Of a stretch of 64,000 bases of DNA, positions 49,588 to 55,710 are shown in pieces. Both the position numbers and the translations under genes were made by a program. This DNA comes from Caballeronia glathei (lineage in GTDB: Bacteria; Pseudomonadota; Gammaproteobacteria; Burkholderiales; Burkholderiaceae): NCBI RefSeq assembly GCF_000698595.1, contig NZ_JFHC01000046.1, positions 1 to 64,000 on the forward strand, given 5' to 3'. Every line of letters begins with the position of its first letter. Position 1 is the first letter of the stretch. Below the pieces are notes generated by a model. That model did not search any database, was not told the origin of the DNA, and was given only the letters and a program-made list of their open reading frames with translations.

Positions 49588-49930
49588 GGGGCGTTGCGCT
49601 CCGTCCCCTGGAGCGCTGCATTGAAAGGACACCCCGTTCCCCAAAGCCGGAAAGCCGCCTCGTGCGGCTTTTTTGCTATTTGACCCGGTAACGGGCGGGG
49701 TGTCGATTCGGCCGGAAGGCATAAGCAAGAACGTATTTCTGCCAGCGAGCGCGGCGCGGCGGCGCACCCGCTTTTCATGCGTCTTGCCTATTGCTTTCGG
49801 CCAGCTGGCGCCCGGGCATGTGCCTTGCCACACTGGTTCCATACAGAACCACGCGGCACGCCGACAGGGAGAGCGTCATGCAGATCAGTTTCAGCCGCAC
49901 CGGCACCCGCGGGTGGCTTCGAGGTCCGCC
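49588..49930. other. Intergenic region ahead of the dehydrogenase/deacetylase operon
   Basis: A 343-bp gap that holds the symporter terminator and, after it, the likely promoter of the downstream operon. The span 49675-49760 includes TTTGCTATTTGACC and TATTTCTG, possible promoter material, but no boxes could be assigned. Confidence 0.35.
49651..49674 (+). terminator. Hairpin terminator after the SBF-like symporter gene
   Basis: AAAGCCGC (49651-49658) and GCGGCTTT (49664-49671) form an 8-bp stem with a short CTCGT loop, followed by a T-run to 49674. Confidence 0.88.
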
Positions 49931-50977
49931 ATGGCATACGTGATGAGCGCGCCTGCGCGCGCCTGCGCCACCGAGCTGAAGGCATTCCTGCGCGAACTGA
50001 ACATCGAACGAGGCACACCTGCCGAAGCCGCGCATGCGTTGCGAACGTTGATCGACGCCGGGCTCGACCGCATTGACCTGCCCGGCAAGGGCGCGACGCT
50101 CGAGCGATGGAGGATTCTCGGCGCGGTGGCCGCTTTTGACCTGTCCCTCGTGAAGCTGTACGAGGGCCACACCGATGCCCTCGCGATTCTCGCCGAACTG
50201 GAGTGCATCGAAACCGGCAGCGGTGAGGCCTGGGGCGTCTGGGCCGCGGAGCCGCCGTCCGCCCGCCTCGCTGCGATGACGACTCGCGCGGACCGCCGGA
50301 TCAGGCTTCGAGGCACAAAAGCGTGGTGCTCGGGCGCGGCGTTTCTCACGCACGCGCTCGTGAGTGCATGGAACGAGCGGGACGAGCCGATACTCGCCGC
50401 GGTGGATCTGCACCAGCCCTCGGTTTGCGTGACGAACGAAGGCTGGAAAGCCGTGGGCATGAGTGCAAGCGCGAGCGTCGACGTGCATTTCGACAACGCG
50501 GCCGCCGTGCAGATCGGCGCGCCGCGTGCCTATCTGGATCGGCCGGGTTTCTGGCAAGGAGGCGCAGGCATCGCGGCGTGCTGGTTCGGCGCGGCTGCGG
50601 CCATCGGAAATTTCGTCAGGCAGGAAGCCGCCCGGCGGCCGGACCCGTACAGGCTCGCGCATCTGGGCGCGATCGACACGGCGCTCGCGAGCGCCGCAAG
50701 CCTGATGCGCGAAGCGGCGGCGCAAATCGACCGCGAACCGAAGGCCGACGCCATAGTGCCCGCGTTGCGCGCGCGGCTCGCGGTGGAACGCGCTGCCACA
50801 ACGGTGATGGAACACGCGGGACGCGCACTCGGTGCCGCTCCGCTTTGCCGCAACGAGCATTTCGCCCGCCTGATGGCCGATCTCCCCGTGTTCATCCGGC
50901 AAAGCCACGCTGAACGCGACGAAGCCGCGCTCGCGGAGCGCATCGTCGAAGAGGAGCGCGGCTCATGGCCACTGTAA
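49931..50977 (+). CDS. Acyl-CoA dehydrogenase-like protein, first gene of an unusual operon
   Basis: A 348-residue protein with the acyl-CoA dehydrogenase fold in shortened form. The middle domain shows the beta-barrel pattern RIRLRGTKAWCSGAAFLTHA and a WGVWAAEPPSARLAAMTTRA loop, and the C-terminal helical bundle is AAAIGNFVRQEAARRPDPYR through LARLAVERAATTVMEHAGRA. The usual catalytic Glu cannot be placed by eye, so activity is uncertain. ATG 49931 follows GAGGTCC. Its end overlaps the PIG-L gene by 13 nt, and the methyltransferase overlaps that in turn. In other genomes a glycosyltransferase often joins this set; none is present here. Confidence 0.82.
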   Translation: MAYVMSAPARACATELKAFLRELNIERGTPAEAAHALRTLIDAGLDRIDLPGKGATLERWRILGAVAAFDLSLVKLYEGHTDALAILAELECIETGSGEAWGVWAAEPPSARLAAMTTRADRRIRLRGTKAWCSGAAFLTHALVSAWNERDEPILAAVDLHQPSVCVTNEGWKAVGMSASASVDVHFDNAAAVQIGAPRAYLDRPGFWQGGAGIAACWFGAAAAIGNFVRQEAARRPDPYRLAHLGAIDTALASAASLMREAAAQIDREPKADAIVPALRARLAVERAATTVMEHAGRALGAAPLCRNEHFARLMADLPVFIRQSHAERDEAALAERIVEEERGSWPL

Positions 50978-51741
50978 TCAGCAAGACACACAAGGACCGC
51001 GTGCTCGCCGGCACGGGTACGCCCGAATCCTCATGGCAGAACTGGGCGAGGCTTGGCGCGCTGCCCGAGGTCAAACCCGCCGAACTCGTGCCGCCCGGCG
51101 CGCGGGCGGTCGTTGTCGCGCCGCATCCCGACGACGAGGTCCTCGGCACCGGCGGCCTGCTCGCCCACCTGTCCGCGCTCGGGCGCAGGGTGCTGATCGT
51201 CGCCGTGACGGACGGCACTGCGAGTCATCCGGATTCGCCGGCATGGCCCGTCGAGCGCCTCGCGGCGGTCCGTCCGCAGGAAACGCGCGAAGCGCTGCAG
51301 CGTCTTCACATGCGGCAGGTGCAACTCGCGCGGCTCGGCCTGCCCGACGGCGGCGGCAAGCGGTTCGAGGCGCAACTCGCGGCGTCGCTCGCCGATCACC
51401 TTGGCCCGGGCGACGTCGTCTTCGGCACGTGGCGCCACGACGGCCATCCGGACCATGAAGCGGTAGGGCGAGCGGTATCAATGGTTGCGGGGAGCCTCGA
51501 TGTCCCCTTCGTCGAAGTCCCGGTATGGACGTGGCACTGGGCGACGCCCGAAGATCCCCGCGTGCCGTGGAGCCGTGCGCGGCGCATCGTGCTGGATGCC
51601 GCGACGCACGCCCGCAAGCTCCACGCGGTGGAGGCGTTTCGCAGCCAGATGGAACCGGATGTCGCGACAGGCCGCGCGCCGATCCTGCCGGATCATGTGC
51701 TGGCGCGGCTCACGCGACCCTACGAGGTGGTCCTGATATGA
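50965..51741 (+). CDS. PIG-L family N-deacetylase
   Basis: A 258-residue zinc-dependent deacetylase of the PIG-L/LmbE family, which removes N-acetyl groups from sugars or related amines. The metal motif is VVVAPHPDDEVLGTGGLLAH, with the third ligand in TWRHDGHPDHEAVGRAV. The C-terminal half carries RIVLDAATHARKLHAVEAFR and the terminal DHVLARLTRPYEVVLI. The first ~45 residues are an extra N-terminal segment. It overlaps the dehydrogenase-like gene by 13 nt and the methyltransferase by 4 nt (ATGA). Tight overlap implies that the three products act on the same compound. Confidence 0.92.
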   Translation: MATVISKTHKDRVLAGTGTPESSWQNWARLGALPEVKPAELVPPGARAVVVAPHPDDEVLGTGGLLAHLSALGRRVLIVAVTDGTASHPDSPAWPVERLAAVRPQETREALQRLHMRQVQLARLGLPDGGGKRFEAQLAASLADHLGPGDVVFGTWRHDGHPDHEAVGRAVSMVAGSLDVPFVEVPVWTWHWATPEDPRVPWSRARRIVLDAATHARKLHAVEAFRSQMEPDVATGRAPILPDHVLARLTRPYEVVLI

Positions 51742-52343
51742 TCGGCGGGCCGCCAGCACGGCAATACTTCGACGGCCTGTACGCGCAAAGCGACGATCCC
51801 TGGCTTCTTCGCGAGCGCTGGTACGAGCGCCGCAAGCGCGCGCTCACGCTCGCCATGCTTCCGGACGAGCACTACGTGCGCGCTTTCGAGCCGGGCTGCG
51901 CGAACGGTGAGCTGACGGCCGCGCTGGCGCCCCGCTGCGGCGCGCTGCTCGCCGCCGATCTCAGCGAAGAAGCGGTCGCGCTCGCGCGCCGCCGCGTCGC
52001 GCATCTGAGCCACGTGCATGTCGAGCGGCGAGCAGTCCCCGACGACTGGCCGGACGGCCGCTTCGATCTGATCGTCATCAGCGAGCTCGCCTACTACCTC
52101 GACCCCGCGCAGGTGTCGCGGCTGATCGAGCGCGTGACGGCAACCCTCGCTCCCGGCGGCACCCTGCTCGCCTGCCATTGGCGACGGCCAATCGAAGGCT
52201 GGTCATACACGGGCGATACCATCCACGCCGAACTGATGGACAAGCTCGCGATTCCGCTCCTCGCCCACTATCAGGATGACGACGTGGTCATCCATGTCCT
52301 GTCGTCCAACGCCGCCTCGATTCATCAGCGCGAAGGGCGGTGA
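51738..52343 (+). CDS. SAM-dependent methyltransferase (NodS-like)
   Basis: A 201-residue class I methyltransferase. The SAM-binding motif I is VRAFEPGCANGELTAALAPR, motif II LLAADLSEEAVALARRRV, motif III DDWPDGRFDLIVISELAYYL and a post-motif LAPGGTLLACHWRRPIEGWS. QYFDGLYAQSDDPWLLRERW is the opening seen in NodS-type N-methyltransferases, which methylate deacetylated amino-sugar oligomers in nodulation-factor synthesis. Its ATG overlaps the PIG-L stop. No nod genes are nearby, so the amine of a PIG-L product is the suggested substrate by inference. Confidence 0.9.
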   Translation: MIGGPPARQYFDGLYAQSDDPWLLRERWYERRKRALTLAMLPDEHYVRAFEPGCANGELTAALAPRCGALLAADLSEEAVALARRRVAHLSHVHVERRAVPDDWPDGRFDLIVISELAYYLDPAQVSRLIERVTATLAPGGTLLACHWRRPIEGWSYTGDTIHAELMDKLAIPLLAHYQDDDVVIHVLSSNAASIHQREGR

Positions 52344-52360
52344 CCGGCGCTGTTTAAGCC

Positions 52361-52544: not shown

Positions 52545-53552
52545 ATGGGCACCACCATTCGCGATGTCGCGCGTGCGGCCAGCGTCTCGATCGGCACTGT
52601 GTCGAGGGCGCTGAAGAACCAGCCGGGCCTGTCCGAAGCGACGCGCGTTCGCGTCGTCGAAGTGGCGCAGCAGCTCGGCTACGATCCCGCCCAGTTGCGC
52701 ACGCGCATCCGCCGCGTCACGTTCCTGCTGCACCGGCAGCACAACAACTTCGCCGTCAGCCCGTTTTTCTCGCATGTGCTGAACGGCTTCGAGGAAGCGT
52801 GCCGCGAGCGACGTCTCGTGCCCTCGGTGCTCACGGCCGGTCCCACGCAGGATCTCGCGCAGCAGATGCGCCTGCATGCGCCCGACGCCATCGCGGTCGC
52901 CGGTTTCGTCGAGCCCGAACTGCTCGCGCATCTGCATTCGCTGAACCGGCCGATCGTCCTCATCGACCTGCGCGCGCCCGGCTTCCGCTCGGTCAATATC
53001 GACAACGTCAAGGGCGCGTCCCTCGCGATGCAGCATCTCTTCGCCCTCGGGCGGCGGCGCGTCGCGTTCATCGGCGGGTCGCTCGCGCATCACAGCATCG
53101 CGCAGCGCGCGCTCGGCTACCGGCGCGCCTATTTCGAGGCGGGCCTGCTGTTCGATCCGATGCTCGAAGTCACGACGCAGCCCGGCCTCGCCGCCGATCT
53201 CGCCGCCGCCGACGCGATGGAGCGGCTGATCCGCGACGCACGCGCGCAATCGAGTCCCCTCCCCGACGCCGTTTTCGCCTATAACGATGCAGCGGCCCTC
53301 GCCGCGATGCGCGTCTGCCTTGCGCATGGCTTACGGGTGCCGGAAGACATCGCGTTCGTCGGTTTCGACGACATTCCGGCCGCCGCGCAGAGCACGCCGC
53401 CGCTGTCGACCGTAACGGTCGACAAAGAGGCGCTCGGCAGGCGCGGCGTGGAGCTGCTGCTGGAGGACAGCCCGAATTCCCCCGACCCGGCCGACACGCT
53501 GGTGCCGGTAAATTTCATCCCTCGCGCGAGCTCCGGCTCGACCACGACATGA
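52545..53552 (+). CDS. LacI-family transcriptional regulator
   Basis: A 335-residue repressor. The N-terminal helix-turn-helix starts TTIRDVARAASVSIGTVSRA and the hinge includes ATRVRVVEVAQQLGYDPAQL. The sugar-binding core has VAGFVEPELLAHLHSLNRPI, FIGGSLAHHSIAQRALGYRR and PDAVFAYNDAAALAAMRVCL, ending PEDIAFVGFDDIPAAAQSTP. It lies 3 to 4 nt upstream of the isomerase gene, which its stop overlaps, so it should control its own operon together with the isomerase and kinase. The inducer is unknown, presumably the sugar handled by those enzymes. Confidence 0.93.
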   Translation: MGTTIRDVARAASVSIGTVSRALKNQPGLSEATRVRVVEVAQQLGYDPAQLRTRIRRVTFLLHRQHNNFAVSPFFSHVLNGFEEACRERRLVPSVLTAGPTQDLAQQMRLHAPDAIAVAGFVEPELLAHLHSLNRPIVLIDLRAPGFRSVNIDNVKGASLAMQHLFALGRRRVAFIGGSLAHHSIAQRALGYRRAYFEAGLLFDPMLEVTTQPGLAADLAAADAMERLIRDARAQSSPLPDAVFAYNDAAALAAMRVCLAHGLRVPEDIAFVGFDDIPAAAQSTPPLSTVTVDKEALGRRGVELLLEDSPNSPDPADTLVPVNFIPRASSGSTTT

Positions 53553-54793
53553 ACTCGACCGCTTCGACCGTTGCCGCCACCAACGCGGACATCGACTTCC
53601 GCAGCCGCGACTTCCTGCTCTCGCACGTGCGCGACACGCTCGCGTTCTACGCGCCGACCGCCCGCGATCCGTCGGGCGGCTTCTTCCACTTCTTCAAGGA
53701 CGACGGCCGCATCTACGACAGCACGACACGCCACCTCGTCAGCAGCACGCGTTTTGTCTTCAATTACGCGATGGCCTATCGCCACTTCGGCGACGTCTCC
53801 TATCAGGACGACGCGCGTCACGCCTTCAAATTCCTGCGCGACGCCCACTGGGACGCCGCCCGCGAAGGCTACGACTGGGAAATCGAATGGCGCGACGGCG
53901 CGAAGCGCACGCTGGACGGCACGCGCCACTGCTACGGGCTCGCGTTCGTGCTGCTCGCCTGCGCGCACGCGTCGATGGCGGGCATCGAGGAAGCGACACC
54001 GCTGATCAGCGACACGTTCCATCTTCTCGAGCGCCGTTTCTGGGACGCCGAAGCCGGCCTCTACGCCGACGAAGCCACGCCCGACTGGCAGTTGTCCGAC
54101 TATCGCGGGCAGAACGCGAACATGCACGCAACCGAGGCACTGCTTGCCGCGTACGAGGCGACCGGCCATGTGATCTATCTGGACCGCGCGGAGAAAATCG
54201 CGGGGAACATCACGCTGCGGCAGGCGAAGCTCTCGAACGGGCTCGTCTGGGAGCACTTCCGCCCGGACTGGTCGGTCGACTGGCACTACAACGAATCGGA
54301 CAGCTCGAACATCTTCCGTCCGTGGGGTTTCCAGCCCGGCCATCAGACGGAGTGGGCCAAGCTCCTCCTGATTCTCGAACGGCATCGCGCGCTGCCGTGG
54401 CTCGCGCCGCGCGCCGTCGAACTGTTCGACGCCGGCTTCAACCGCGCCTGGGACAGCCGCCACGGCGGCCTCTACTACGGCTTCGGCCCCGACGACACCA
54501 TCTGCGACCACGACAAGTATTTCTGGGTGCAGGCCGAAAGCTTCGCCGCCGCCGCGCTGCTCGGCGCACGCACGGGGCGCGAGCGCTTCTGGGATTGCTA
54601 CGACGAACTATGGCGCTATAGCTGGGCGCATTTCGTCGATCACCGGCACGGCGCGTGGTACCGCATCCTCACGTGCGACAACCGCAAGTACGGCGACGAA
54701 AAAAGCCCCGCCGGCAAGACCGACTACCACACGATGGGCGCGTGCTACGAGGTGCTGAACGCCCTTACCGCCCCGGACACGAGCAAACGGTGA
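53549..54793 (+). CDS. AGE-family sugar isomerase/epimerase
   Basis: A 414-residue (alpha/alpha)6-barrel enzyme of the N-acylglucosamine 2-epimerase superfamily. This bacterial subgroup usually interconverts mannose and fructose or similar aldose/ketose pairs (YihS/mannose isomerase type). Visible are GGFFHFFKDDGRIYDSTTRH, the Arg in HLVSSTRFVFNYAMAYRHFG, GQNANMHATEALLAAYEATG, with the catalytic His, and KYFWVQAESFAAAALLGART near the second. ATG 53549 overlaps the LacI stop by 4 nt; its own TGA overlaps a GTG of the kinase gene. Confidence 0.9.
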   Translation: MNSTASTVAATNADIDFRSRDFLLSHVRDTLAFYAPTARDPSGGFFHFFKDDGRIYDSTTRHLVSSTRFVFNYAMAYRHFGDVSYQDDARHAFKFLRDAHWDAAREGYDWEIEWRDGAKRTLDGTRHCYGLAFVLLACAHASMAGIEEATPLISDTFHLLERRFWDAEAGLYADEATPDWQLSDYRGQNANMHATEALLAAYEATGHVIYLDRAEKIAGNITLRQAKLSNGLVWEHFRPDWSVDWHYNESDSSNIFRPWGFQPGHQTEWAKLLLILERHRALPWLAPRAVELFDAGFNRAWDSRHGGLYYGFGPDDTICDHDKYFWVQAESFAAAALLGARTGRERFWDCYDELWRYSWAHFVDHRHGAWYRILTCDNRKYGDEKSPAGKTDYHTMGACYEVLNALTAPDTSKR

Positions 54794-54798
54794 GAAAG

Positions 54799-55710
54799 AT
54801 GGCAGCAGAACAGCAGACTCTTCCGAAATTCGTCTCAGCCGGCGACATCCTCACCGACATGATCCGCACCGACACGTCCACCTGGCTCTCGCGCCCGGGC
54901 GGCGCCGGGTGGAACGTCGCGCGGGCGGTCGCGCGGCTCGGCGTGCCTACCGCGTGCGCGGGGTCGCTCGGCGTCGACAATTTCTCCGATGACCTGTGGG
55001 ACGCGAGCGTCGCGGCCGGTCTCGACATGCGCTTCATGCAGCGCGTCGAGCGTCCGCCCCTGCTTGCGATCGTCCACAAGACCCAGCCGCCGACCTACTA
55101 CTTCATGGGCGAGAACGGCGCCGATCTCGCGTTCGATCCGTCGACGCTGCCGCAAGGCTGGATGGACCAGGTGAAGTGGGCGCATTTCGGCTGCATCAGC
55201 CTCGTGCGCCAGCCGCTCGGCGCGACGCTCGCCGCGCTCGCCGCGCAGTTGCGCGCGCACGGCGTGAAGATCAGCTTCGATCCGAACTACCGCAACCTGA
55301 TGGAAACCGGCTACGAGCCGATCCTGCACAACATGGCGTCGCTCGCCGACCTGATCAAGGTATCGGACGAAGACCTGCACATGCTCTTTCGCGGCATCCC
55401 GGAAGCCGATGCGCTCGCTGAGGTCCGCGCGATGAACCCGCGCGCCACGGTCCTCGTCACGCGCGGCGCGAACGAGGCGGCGCTCTATGTCGGCGATGCC
55501 GTCCATCGCGCGAAGCCGCCGCAGGTGCAGGTCGCGGATACGGTCGGCGCGGGCGACGCGTCGATCGGCGGCCTGCTCTACAGCCTGATGGCGCGCGAAG
55601 GCGAATGGCCCGATCATCTGCGCTTCGCGCTCGCGTCCGGCGCGGCGGCGTGCCGATTTTCGGGCGCGCATTCGCCGTCGCTCGAAGAGGTCGAGGATTT
55701 GCTGACGTAG
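54799..55710 (+). CDS. PfkB-family sugar kinase (fructokinase-like)
   Basis: A 303-residue ribokinase/PfkB-type kinase. The substrate-binding GG is LSRPGGAGWNVARAVARLG, and the anion-hole signature with catalytic Asp is QVADTVGAGDASIGGLLYSL. VSAGDILTDMIRTDTSTWLS, PNYRNLMETGYEP and VTRGANEAALY complete the fold. Start is ATG 54799; GTG 54790 overlapping the isomerase stop is possible. With an AGE-type isomerase it would convert, for example, mannose via fructose to fructose 6-phosphate; that substrate is inferred. No transporter gene lies in the operon. Confidence 0.92.
   Translation: MAAEQQTLPKFVSAGDILTDMIRTDTSTWLSRPGGAGWNVARAVARLGVPTACAGSLGVDNFSDDLWDASVAAGLDMRFMQRVERPPLLAIVHKTQPPTYYFMGENGADLAFDPSTLPQGWMDQVKWAHFGCISLVRQPLGATLAALAAQLRAHGVKISFDPNYRNLMETGYEPILHNMASLADLIKVSDEDLHMLFRGIPEADALAEVRAMNPRATVLVTRGANEAALYVGDAVHRAKPPQVQVADTVGAGDASIGGLLYSLMAREGEWPDHLRFALASGAAACRFSGAHSPSLEEVEDLLT

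Follow-up and report, generated by a model that had tools for sequence, protein, structure and literature searches.

A conserved flavoprotein–deacetylase–methyltransferase gene trio of Caballeronia glathei and an unlinked glycosyltransferase gene as a candidate amino-sugar pathway

Analysis of a 64,000-nt stretch of the 8.6 Mb genome of Caballeronia glathei (contig NZ_JFHC01000046.1, G000:C46:1-64000; hereafter the window) showed the presence of three adjoining genes, encoding a protein resembling acyl-CoA dehydrogenases (ACAD), an N-deacetylase of the PIG-L family and a NodS-like S-adenosylmethionine-dependent methyltransferase (MT). The trio is real, has the coordinates given in Table 1 and recurs across genera. 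With moderate confidence, it is regarded as three-quarters of a cytosolic four-enzyme biosynthetic pathway, the fourth enzyme being an unlinked family 2 glycosyltransferase (GT2), with an amino-sugar product used under stress. The set probably makes a modified amino-sugar compound, N-methylated and flavin-oxidised. Each part is of a known kind; neither the combination nor the product is described in the open-licence literature searched, and no product assigned to the four-gene set was found in its full texts, in line with the first-pass annotation of the window.

The reading of the three genes as one translational unit, made from their overlaps of 13 and 4 nt, was borne out. A sigma-70-type promoter was looked for upstream of the trio and not found. 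The hairpin separating the trio from the upstream gene of an SBF-like transporter is one of the terminator-like sites in the scan, of which three were observed with 2.2 expected. In the searches described below, the MT query sequence started at 51735, one codon 5' of the ATG.

Loci of the Genome Taxonomy Database (GTDB) were anchored on PIG-L, and from at least 526 confirmed stretches the 80 best were compared; the counts describe close relatives, and here and in all other counts related genomes are counted separately. ACAD and MT genes accompany PIG-L in 73 of the 80 loci, 57 of which also contain GT2 (within about 6 kb), and the trio only is present in 16, including five from genomes outside Caballeronia (L048, L052, L055, L069 and L096). 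PIG-L stands alone in six loci, and in one (L067) PIG-L, MT and GT2 are present, the ACAD gene being cut by the contig end. Hosts include Caballeronia, Pseudomonas, Variovorax, Massilia, Duganella, Janthinobacterium, Halomonas, Salinicola, Psychrobacter, Acinetobacter and others. Among 398 genomes sampled across the phylum, ACAD was detected at E 1e-20 or better in 26; four of these belong to other classes, and their identity is 32-35%. Recurrence in diverse proteobacteria, with a glycosyltransferase as a frequent partner, had been stated in the first-pass annotation, and both points agree with the neighbourhood search and the phylum sample.

The first-pass annotation had also regarded the glycosyltransferase as absent. 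This is wrong genome-wide: a GT2 relative is encoded on another contig (Table 1), and across the genus it is found in genomes that also have the trio; absence of the glycosyltransferase from the genome is thus ruled out. Its product passes PF00535 (55.7 vs 23.3 bits); the best NCBIfam match is the TIGR04283 arsenosugar glycosyltransferase, at 46 bits and below the cut-off of 182, and the model of glucosyl-phosphoglycerate synthase is also near and likewise below its cut-off. No strongly hydrophobic segment was found in any of the four proteins (no 19-residue window over 1.6). Full ACAD and full GT2 genes are present in the same 29 of 37 same-genus genomes (Fisher 2.6e-8, relatedness not corrected). 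The other eight (G003, G008, G012, G017, G025, G034, G035 and G036) contain no intact ACAD or GT2; G003 is only 60% complete, and gene fragments were found in G017 (ACAD and GT2), G008 and G034 (ACAD) and G025 (GT2). Among the 29 genomes, G002 is the only one with ACAD and its best GT2 match on one contig; the two genes lie on separate contigs even in G001, G011 and G033, genomes of 5 to 7 contigs. In the phylum sample, all 21 genomes with GT2 fall within the 26 with ACAD (Fisher 1.5e-30, relatedness not corrected), and G306 is a second case of the trio with GT2 on another contig. ACAD genomes of this sample without a GT2 match are G208 and four distant ones; with a family hidden Markov model, GT2-like frames were found in the fetched stretches of G213, G237 and G095 and none for G338 and G208. 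A UdgX/DUF4130 gene adjoins the unlinked GT2 gene, and this neighbour is kept in two of five other Caballeronia GT2 loci examined.

A search of plasmids for ACAD gave 28 records, namely, 18 of Acinetobacter (three of them chromosome-sized and filed as plasmids), three of Cupriavidus, two of Pandoraea, two of Comamonas and three of Actinomycetota. In the last three (Kitasatospora, Embleya and Streptomyces), the ACAD relatives are 44-49% identical. The Kitasatospora plasmid (L231) contains ACAD, PIG-L and MT genes and an unannotated open frame matching GT2 in two pieces; a gene of the spore photoproduct lyase family lies near this cluster. ACAD and PIG-L genes in pieces were observed in L032/L064 (‘Ca. 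Paraburkholderia kirkii’) and at G034:C174, in reduced same-genus genomes.

The PIG-L protein passes PF02585 (91.4 bits vs a cut-off of 28.2). Among its solved relatives, diacetylchitobiose deacetylases are the best by profile, followed by N-acetylglucosamine (GlcNAc)-malate, MshB and teicoplanin deacetylases. BshB1 and BshB2 are its best NCBIfam matches, both below the cut-offs (41.7 vs 182.5 and 41.6 vs 195.25 bits). The enzyme is predicted to de-N-acetylate an amino-sugar intermediate.

Its place in the pathway is contested by another arrangement, in which ACAD, MT and GT2 form the core, and PIG-L is an independent hydrolase, often co-transcribed, or splits a conjugate instead of deacetylating it. 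The lone PIG-L genes (L036, L038, L045, L074, L092 and L100) count for this arrangement and against a four-enzyme pathway: they are nested among the trio PIG-Ls in the tree; three of them (L036/G061, L074/G064 and L100/G066) occur in genomes without an intact ACAD; and in L036 an intact PIG-L is flanked on both sides by remnants of ACAD and MT. G012, which keeps PIG-L (G012:C1:71670-72401) without ACAD or GT2, likewise speaks against the pathway. The converse sets of ACAD, MT and GT2 without the family PIG-L also favour an independent hydrolase; they are present in C. udeis G002, Burkholderia sp. 8Y G063, P. wayambapalatensis G065, G388, G323 and one Cupriavidus plasmid. In G002, G063 and G065, the family PIG-L stands alone at another place, and in Burkholderia sp. 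8Y this copy has HPDAE for HPDDE, a change that presumably removes a zinc ligand. Scanning the surroundings of the ACAD-MT-GT2 loci for PIG-L motifs gave nothing, whereas Pfam search and annotation do show PIG-L genes: a divergent one directly after GT2 in G323 and on another contig in G388, and an annotated one 3.2 kb from the set on the Cupriavidus plasmid. A PIG-L gene of some sort is thus present in every ACAD-MT-GT2 genome checked. Such genes were also found in 7 of 14 control genomes, however, and being so common, one located elsewhere in a genome is weak support. Against the independent hydrolase, the PIG-L and ACAD genes overlap in 96 of 103 loci, a count that takes in same-genome duplicates and chosen starts, and both the HPDDE and DGHxDH motifs are retained in 108 of 109 PIG-L sequences (some genomes counted twice). 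This arrangement is considered unlikely. Since the lone copies are nested among trio PIG-Ls, their position suggests that they are leftovers or are retained for a separate role. The full operons and the two complementary layouts suit one pathway, with PIG-L sometimes kept alone.

Pseudomonas loci have a second PIG-L paralogue on the downstream side of the cluster (L054:8060-8950, L062:8151-8945, L063:8186-8947, L081:8211-8969 and L067:2316-3074). These five form one clade, and a gene of the EEP family follows in all of them except L063. A second PIG-L is also present in L198 and L200-L202.

The MT protein passes the Pfam NodS model PF05401 (57.9 bits vs 24) and misses the cut-off of the NCBIfam NodS equivalog (72.2 vs 300 bits). 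NodS is the next solved relative after 4isc (E 6e-50), which is labelled only ‘Methyltransferase’ and on which no paper was found in the open-licence literature.

Judged by profiles, the ACAD-like protein is a remote ACAD relative. Its only Pfam match, to the ACAD middle domain, is below the cut-off (28.1 vs 33.3 bits). Structure prediction, proposed by the first-pass annotation, gave an AlphaFold model (mean pLDDT 93.1, pTM 0.92) with the complete three-domain ACAD fold. Thirteen matches were found by comparison of the family with PDB profiles, and the top five are DszC/TdsC and MsuC, to which the protein is about 18-20% identical. Below DnmZ in the same list stand one further dehydrogenase, 3m9v and 4kcf; 3m9v is, as we take it, KijD3, and it and DnmZ are assumed to be amino-sugar N-oxygenases. 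Ser134, invariant in 46 sequences, aligns with Ser163 of DszC, presumably the active-site serine of the CSG motif, and 97 of 99 sequences of the family retain its three motifs. The protein shares its fold with DszC, SfnB and MsuC and differs from them in its low identity, in its length (348 vs about 415 aa) and in missing the SfnB equivalog cut-off (39 vs 430.9 bits); the DszC model cut-off is also missed (20.6 vs 850 bits).

The enzyme could instead be a true acyl dehydrogenase, in an operon for the synthesis or trimming of an acylated glycan or lipid. Besides the full fold, this is favoured by the alignment of the family with nine of the ACADs that the genome encodes (probability 97.6, global mode) and by the many acyl-CoA dehydrogenases among the best fold matches. 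Two observations weigh against an oxygenase: the fold search places dehydrogenases and DszC within 1 Z, and four chains named dehydrogenases rank between MsuC and DnmZ among the profile matches. In the global profile alignment, however, a catalytic glutamate was found at neither the medium-chain (MCAD)-type nor the isovaleryl-type position, which we take to be the base sites of dehydrogenases. The YEGT loop of the nine ACADs falls opposite a gap in the family, and the isovaleryl-type position, the residue before the arginine of LEGGR, is an invariant Gly210; the alignment behind both statements was forced end to end, which tempers them. Moreover, the search of the genome with PF00441 listed 19 places, the ACAD-like gene not among them, and the four conserved genes include neither an acyltransferase nor a carrier protein. 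An acyl dehydrogenase is accordingly held to be quite improbable, and oxidation of an acyl carbon, as offered in the first-pass annotation, is unlikely because the base glutamate is missing and the best profiles are those of flavin monooxygenases. The best reading of the protein is that it may perform a flavin-oxygenase-like step.

Four reactions are proposed for the pathway, in a tentative order. GT2 would transfer an N-acetylated amino sugar onto a small acceptor; PIG-L would strip the acetyl group; the amine so exposed would be N-methylated by the NodS-like MT, and the product would be oxygenated or oxidised by the ACAD-fold protein. This product may aid survival under drying, osmotic or stationary-phase stress. 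Deacetylation followed by N-methylation had already been suggested from the window; the PIG-L and NodS-like profiles are consistent with this part of the suggestion, and acyl-carbon dehydrogenation is the part given up.

Two known systems are partly similar. In the bacillithiol and mycothiol routes (BshA-BshB and MshA-MshB), GlcNAc is transferred to a small acceptor by a glycosyltransferase, and the conjugate is a substrate for deacetylation by a member of the PIG-L family. The pairing of glycosyltransferase and PIG-L is common to both, and BshB1/BshB2 are the nearest NCBIfam models, whereas the trio PIG-L scores far below their cut-offs, and the four-gene set contains no cysteine ligase and has an added methyltransferase and flavoprotein; it also uses a GT2 enzyme where those routes, as we assume, use GT4. 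In Nod-factor synthesis by NodC, NodB and NodS, a GT2 reaction is followed by removal of an acetyl group and N-methylation of the amine that this exposes. The MT of the trio resembles NodS at the level of the Pfam family and not of the equivalog; unlike in that system, the deacetylase is of the PIG-L and not the NodB type, NodA is not among the four genes, and the unlinked GT2 has no strongly hydrophobic segment.

A stress-survival role is proposed on two grounds: several lineages have the set next to trehalose, glycogen and non-homologous end joining (NHEJ) genes, and in Acinetobacter baumannii its expression falls with that of otsAB and a catalase. At least one of eight stress markers lies within 6 kb in 29 of the 80 loci: LigD in 13, TreY in 9, GlgX in 9, Ku in 8, DUF2934 in 6, an EEP-family gene in 6, OtsA in 6 and OtsB in 5. 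On a plasmid of Comamonas antarctica (L230, 6628-11624), the order is otsA-ACAD-PIG-L-MT-GT-otsB, with gene ends overlapping or 2 nt apart; on a plasmid of A. ursingii (L229), catalase, DUF421, the four genes, a gene of the major facilitator superfamily and otsAB were found. Together with the other Acinetobacter records of the plasmid search, this suggests that the set may travel within a stress island. In G421, Ku, LigD, the four genes, an EEP gene and GlgX were seen by eye. At L215:11475-11870, directly after the four genes, a BLUF-like protein is encoded (by eye); this neighbour is likened to blsA, near which, according to the available portion of PMC6240043, A. baumannii has genes of these four types in an identical order.

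Published expression data concern the same species. Table 2 of PMC5660220 marks ACICU_02432-02435 of A. baumannii as one operon, annotated as a glycosyltransferase, a SAM-dependent methyltransferase, an LmbE protein and an acyl-CoA-dehydrogenase-related protein, the same four types in the same order. These genes are down 31- to 62-fold in two colistin-dependent mutants, in which trehalose-6-phosphate synthase and phosphatase are down 12- to 50-fold and catalase 22- and 31-fold (PMC5660220). Orthology is based on annotation and order, and on locus L232 of another A. baumannii strain, in which all four genes were found at 39-45% identity. In the available portions of the respective papers, trehalose genes are cited as raised by BfmR (PMC6181384), and katE and otsAB are lowered in a dksA mutant (PMC10325922). 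A function for ACICU_02432-02435 or the blsA-neighbour genes is not assigned in the available portions of PMC5660220 and PMC6240043, and a description of the cluster was not found in those of PMC13232832, PMC13130816 and PMC9162365.

Several points speak against the stress role and the pathway as a whole. No marker lies within 6 kb in 51 of the 80 loci, including all 14 Caballeronia-type loci. The table of PMC5660220 contrasts colistin-dependent mutants with their parents, not a stress, and in Acinetobacter sp. Tol 5 several acyl-CoA dehydrogenase genes fall on drying, the available text not stating whether the present gene is one of them (PMC13130816).

Downstream of the trio, on the same strand, lie genes of a LacI regulator, a GlcNAc 2-epimerase-like isomerase and a PfkB kinase, which adjoin it in an order kept in Caballeronia-type loci and could be read as forming one sugar-use operon with it. 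Such clusters were not found beside the trio in the other 66 of 80 loci; in L036, L038 and L045, the ACAD and MT genes are gone and the LacI and epimerase genes remain; and a gap of 201 nt follows the trio, with a terminator-like site at 52335-52355. A joint operon is therefore highly improbable, and the link was rejected on locus comparison.

Table 1. Coordinates of the trio, the unlinked glycosyltransferase gene and adjacent features (positions in the window, unless a contig is named)
Feature	Position	Strand	Remarks
ACAD-like gene, 348 aa	49931-50977	+	Open frame, ACAD-fold flavoprotein-like
PIG-L family N-deacetylase gene, 258 aa	50965-51741	+	HPDDE and DGHxDH motifs
NodS-like MT gene, 201 aa	51738-52343	+	Family profile; best solved relative 4isc
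13-nt overlap of ACAD-like and PIG-L genes	50965-50977	+	
4-nt ATGA stop/start overlap of PIG-L and MT genes	51738-51741	+	
Terminator-like hairpin between SBF-like transporter gene and trio	49649-49673	+	Consensus match, not above expectation
LacI regulator, GlcNAc 2-epimerase-like and PfkB kinase genes	52545-55710	Same as trio	Separate unit, Caballeronia-type loci
Small GT2 glycosyltransferase gene	G000:C57:26443-27087		Contig other than that of the trio; 57% identical to Massilia GT2

Near-perfect co-occurrence of the genes, together with the failure to find a product, makes the set a good target for metabolite discovery, and the unlinked position of GT2 in Caballeronia opens the question of a single pathway to deletions at two places. 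Co-variation with trehalose genes and catalase in Acinetobacter, as well as the trehalose and NHEJ neighbourhoods, ties the set to the survival of dry or resting cells. More tentatively, an undescribed class of soluble N-methyl amino-sugar metabolites, widespread in Pseudomonadota and some Actinomycetota and made by GT2, PIG-L, the NodS-like MT and an ACAD-fold amino-sugar oxygenase, could possibly act beside trehalose in survival of drying or osmotic stress; where otsA and otsB flank the four genes, trehalose or its phosphate could even be the scaffold of the metabolite.

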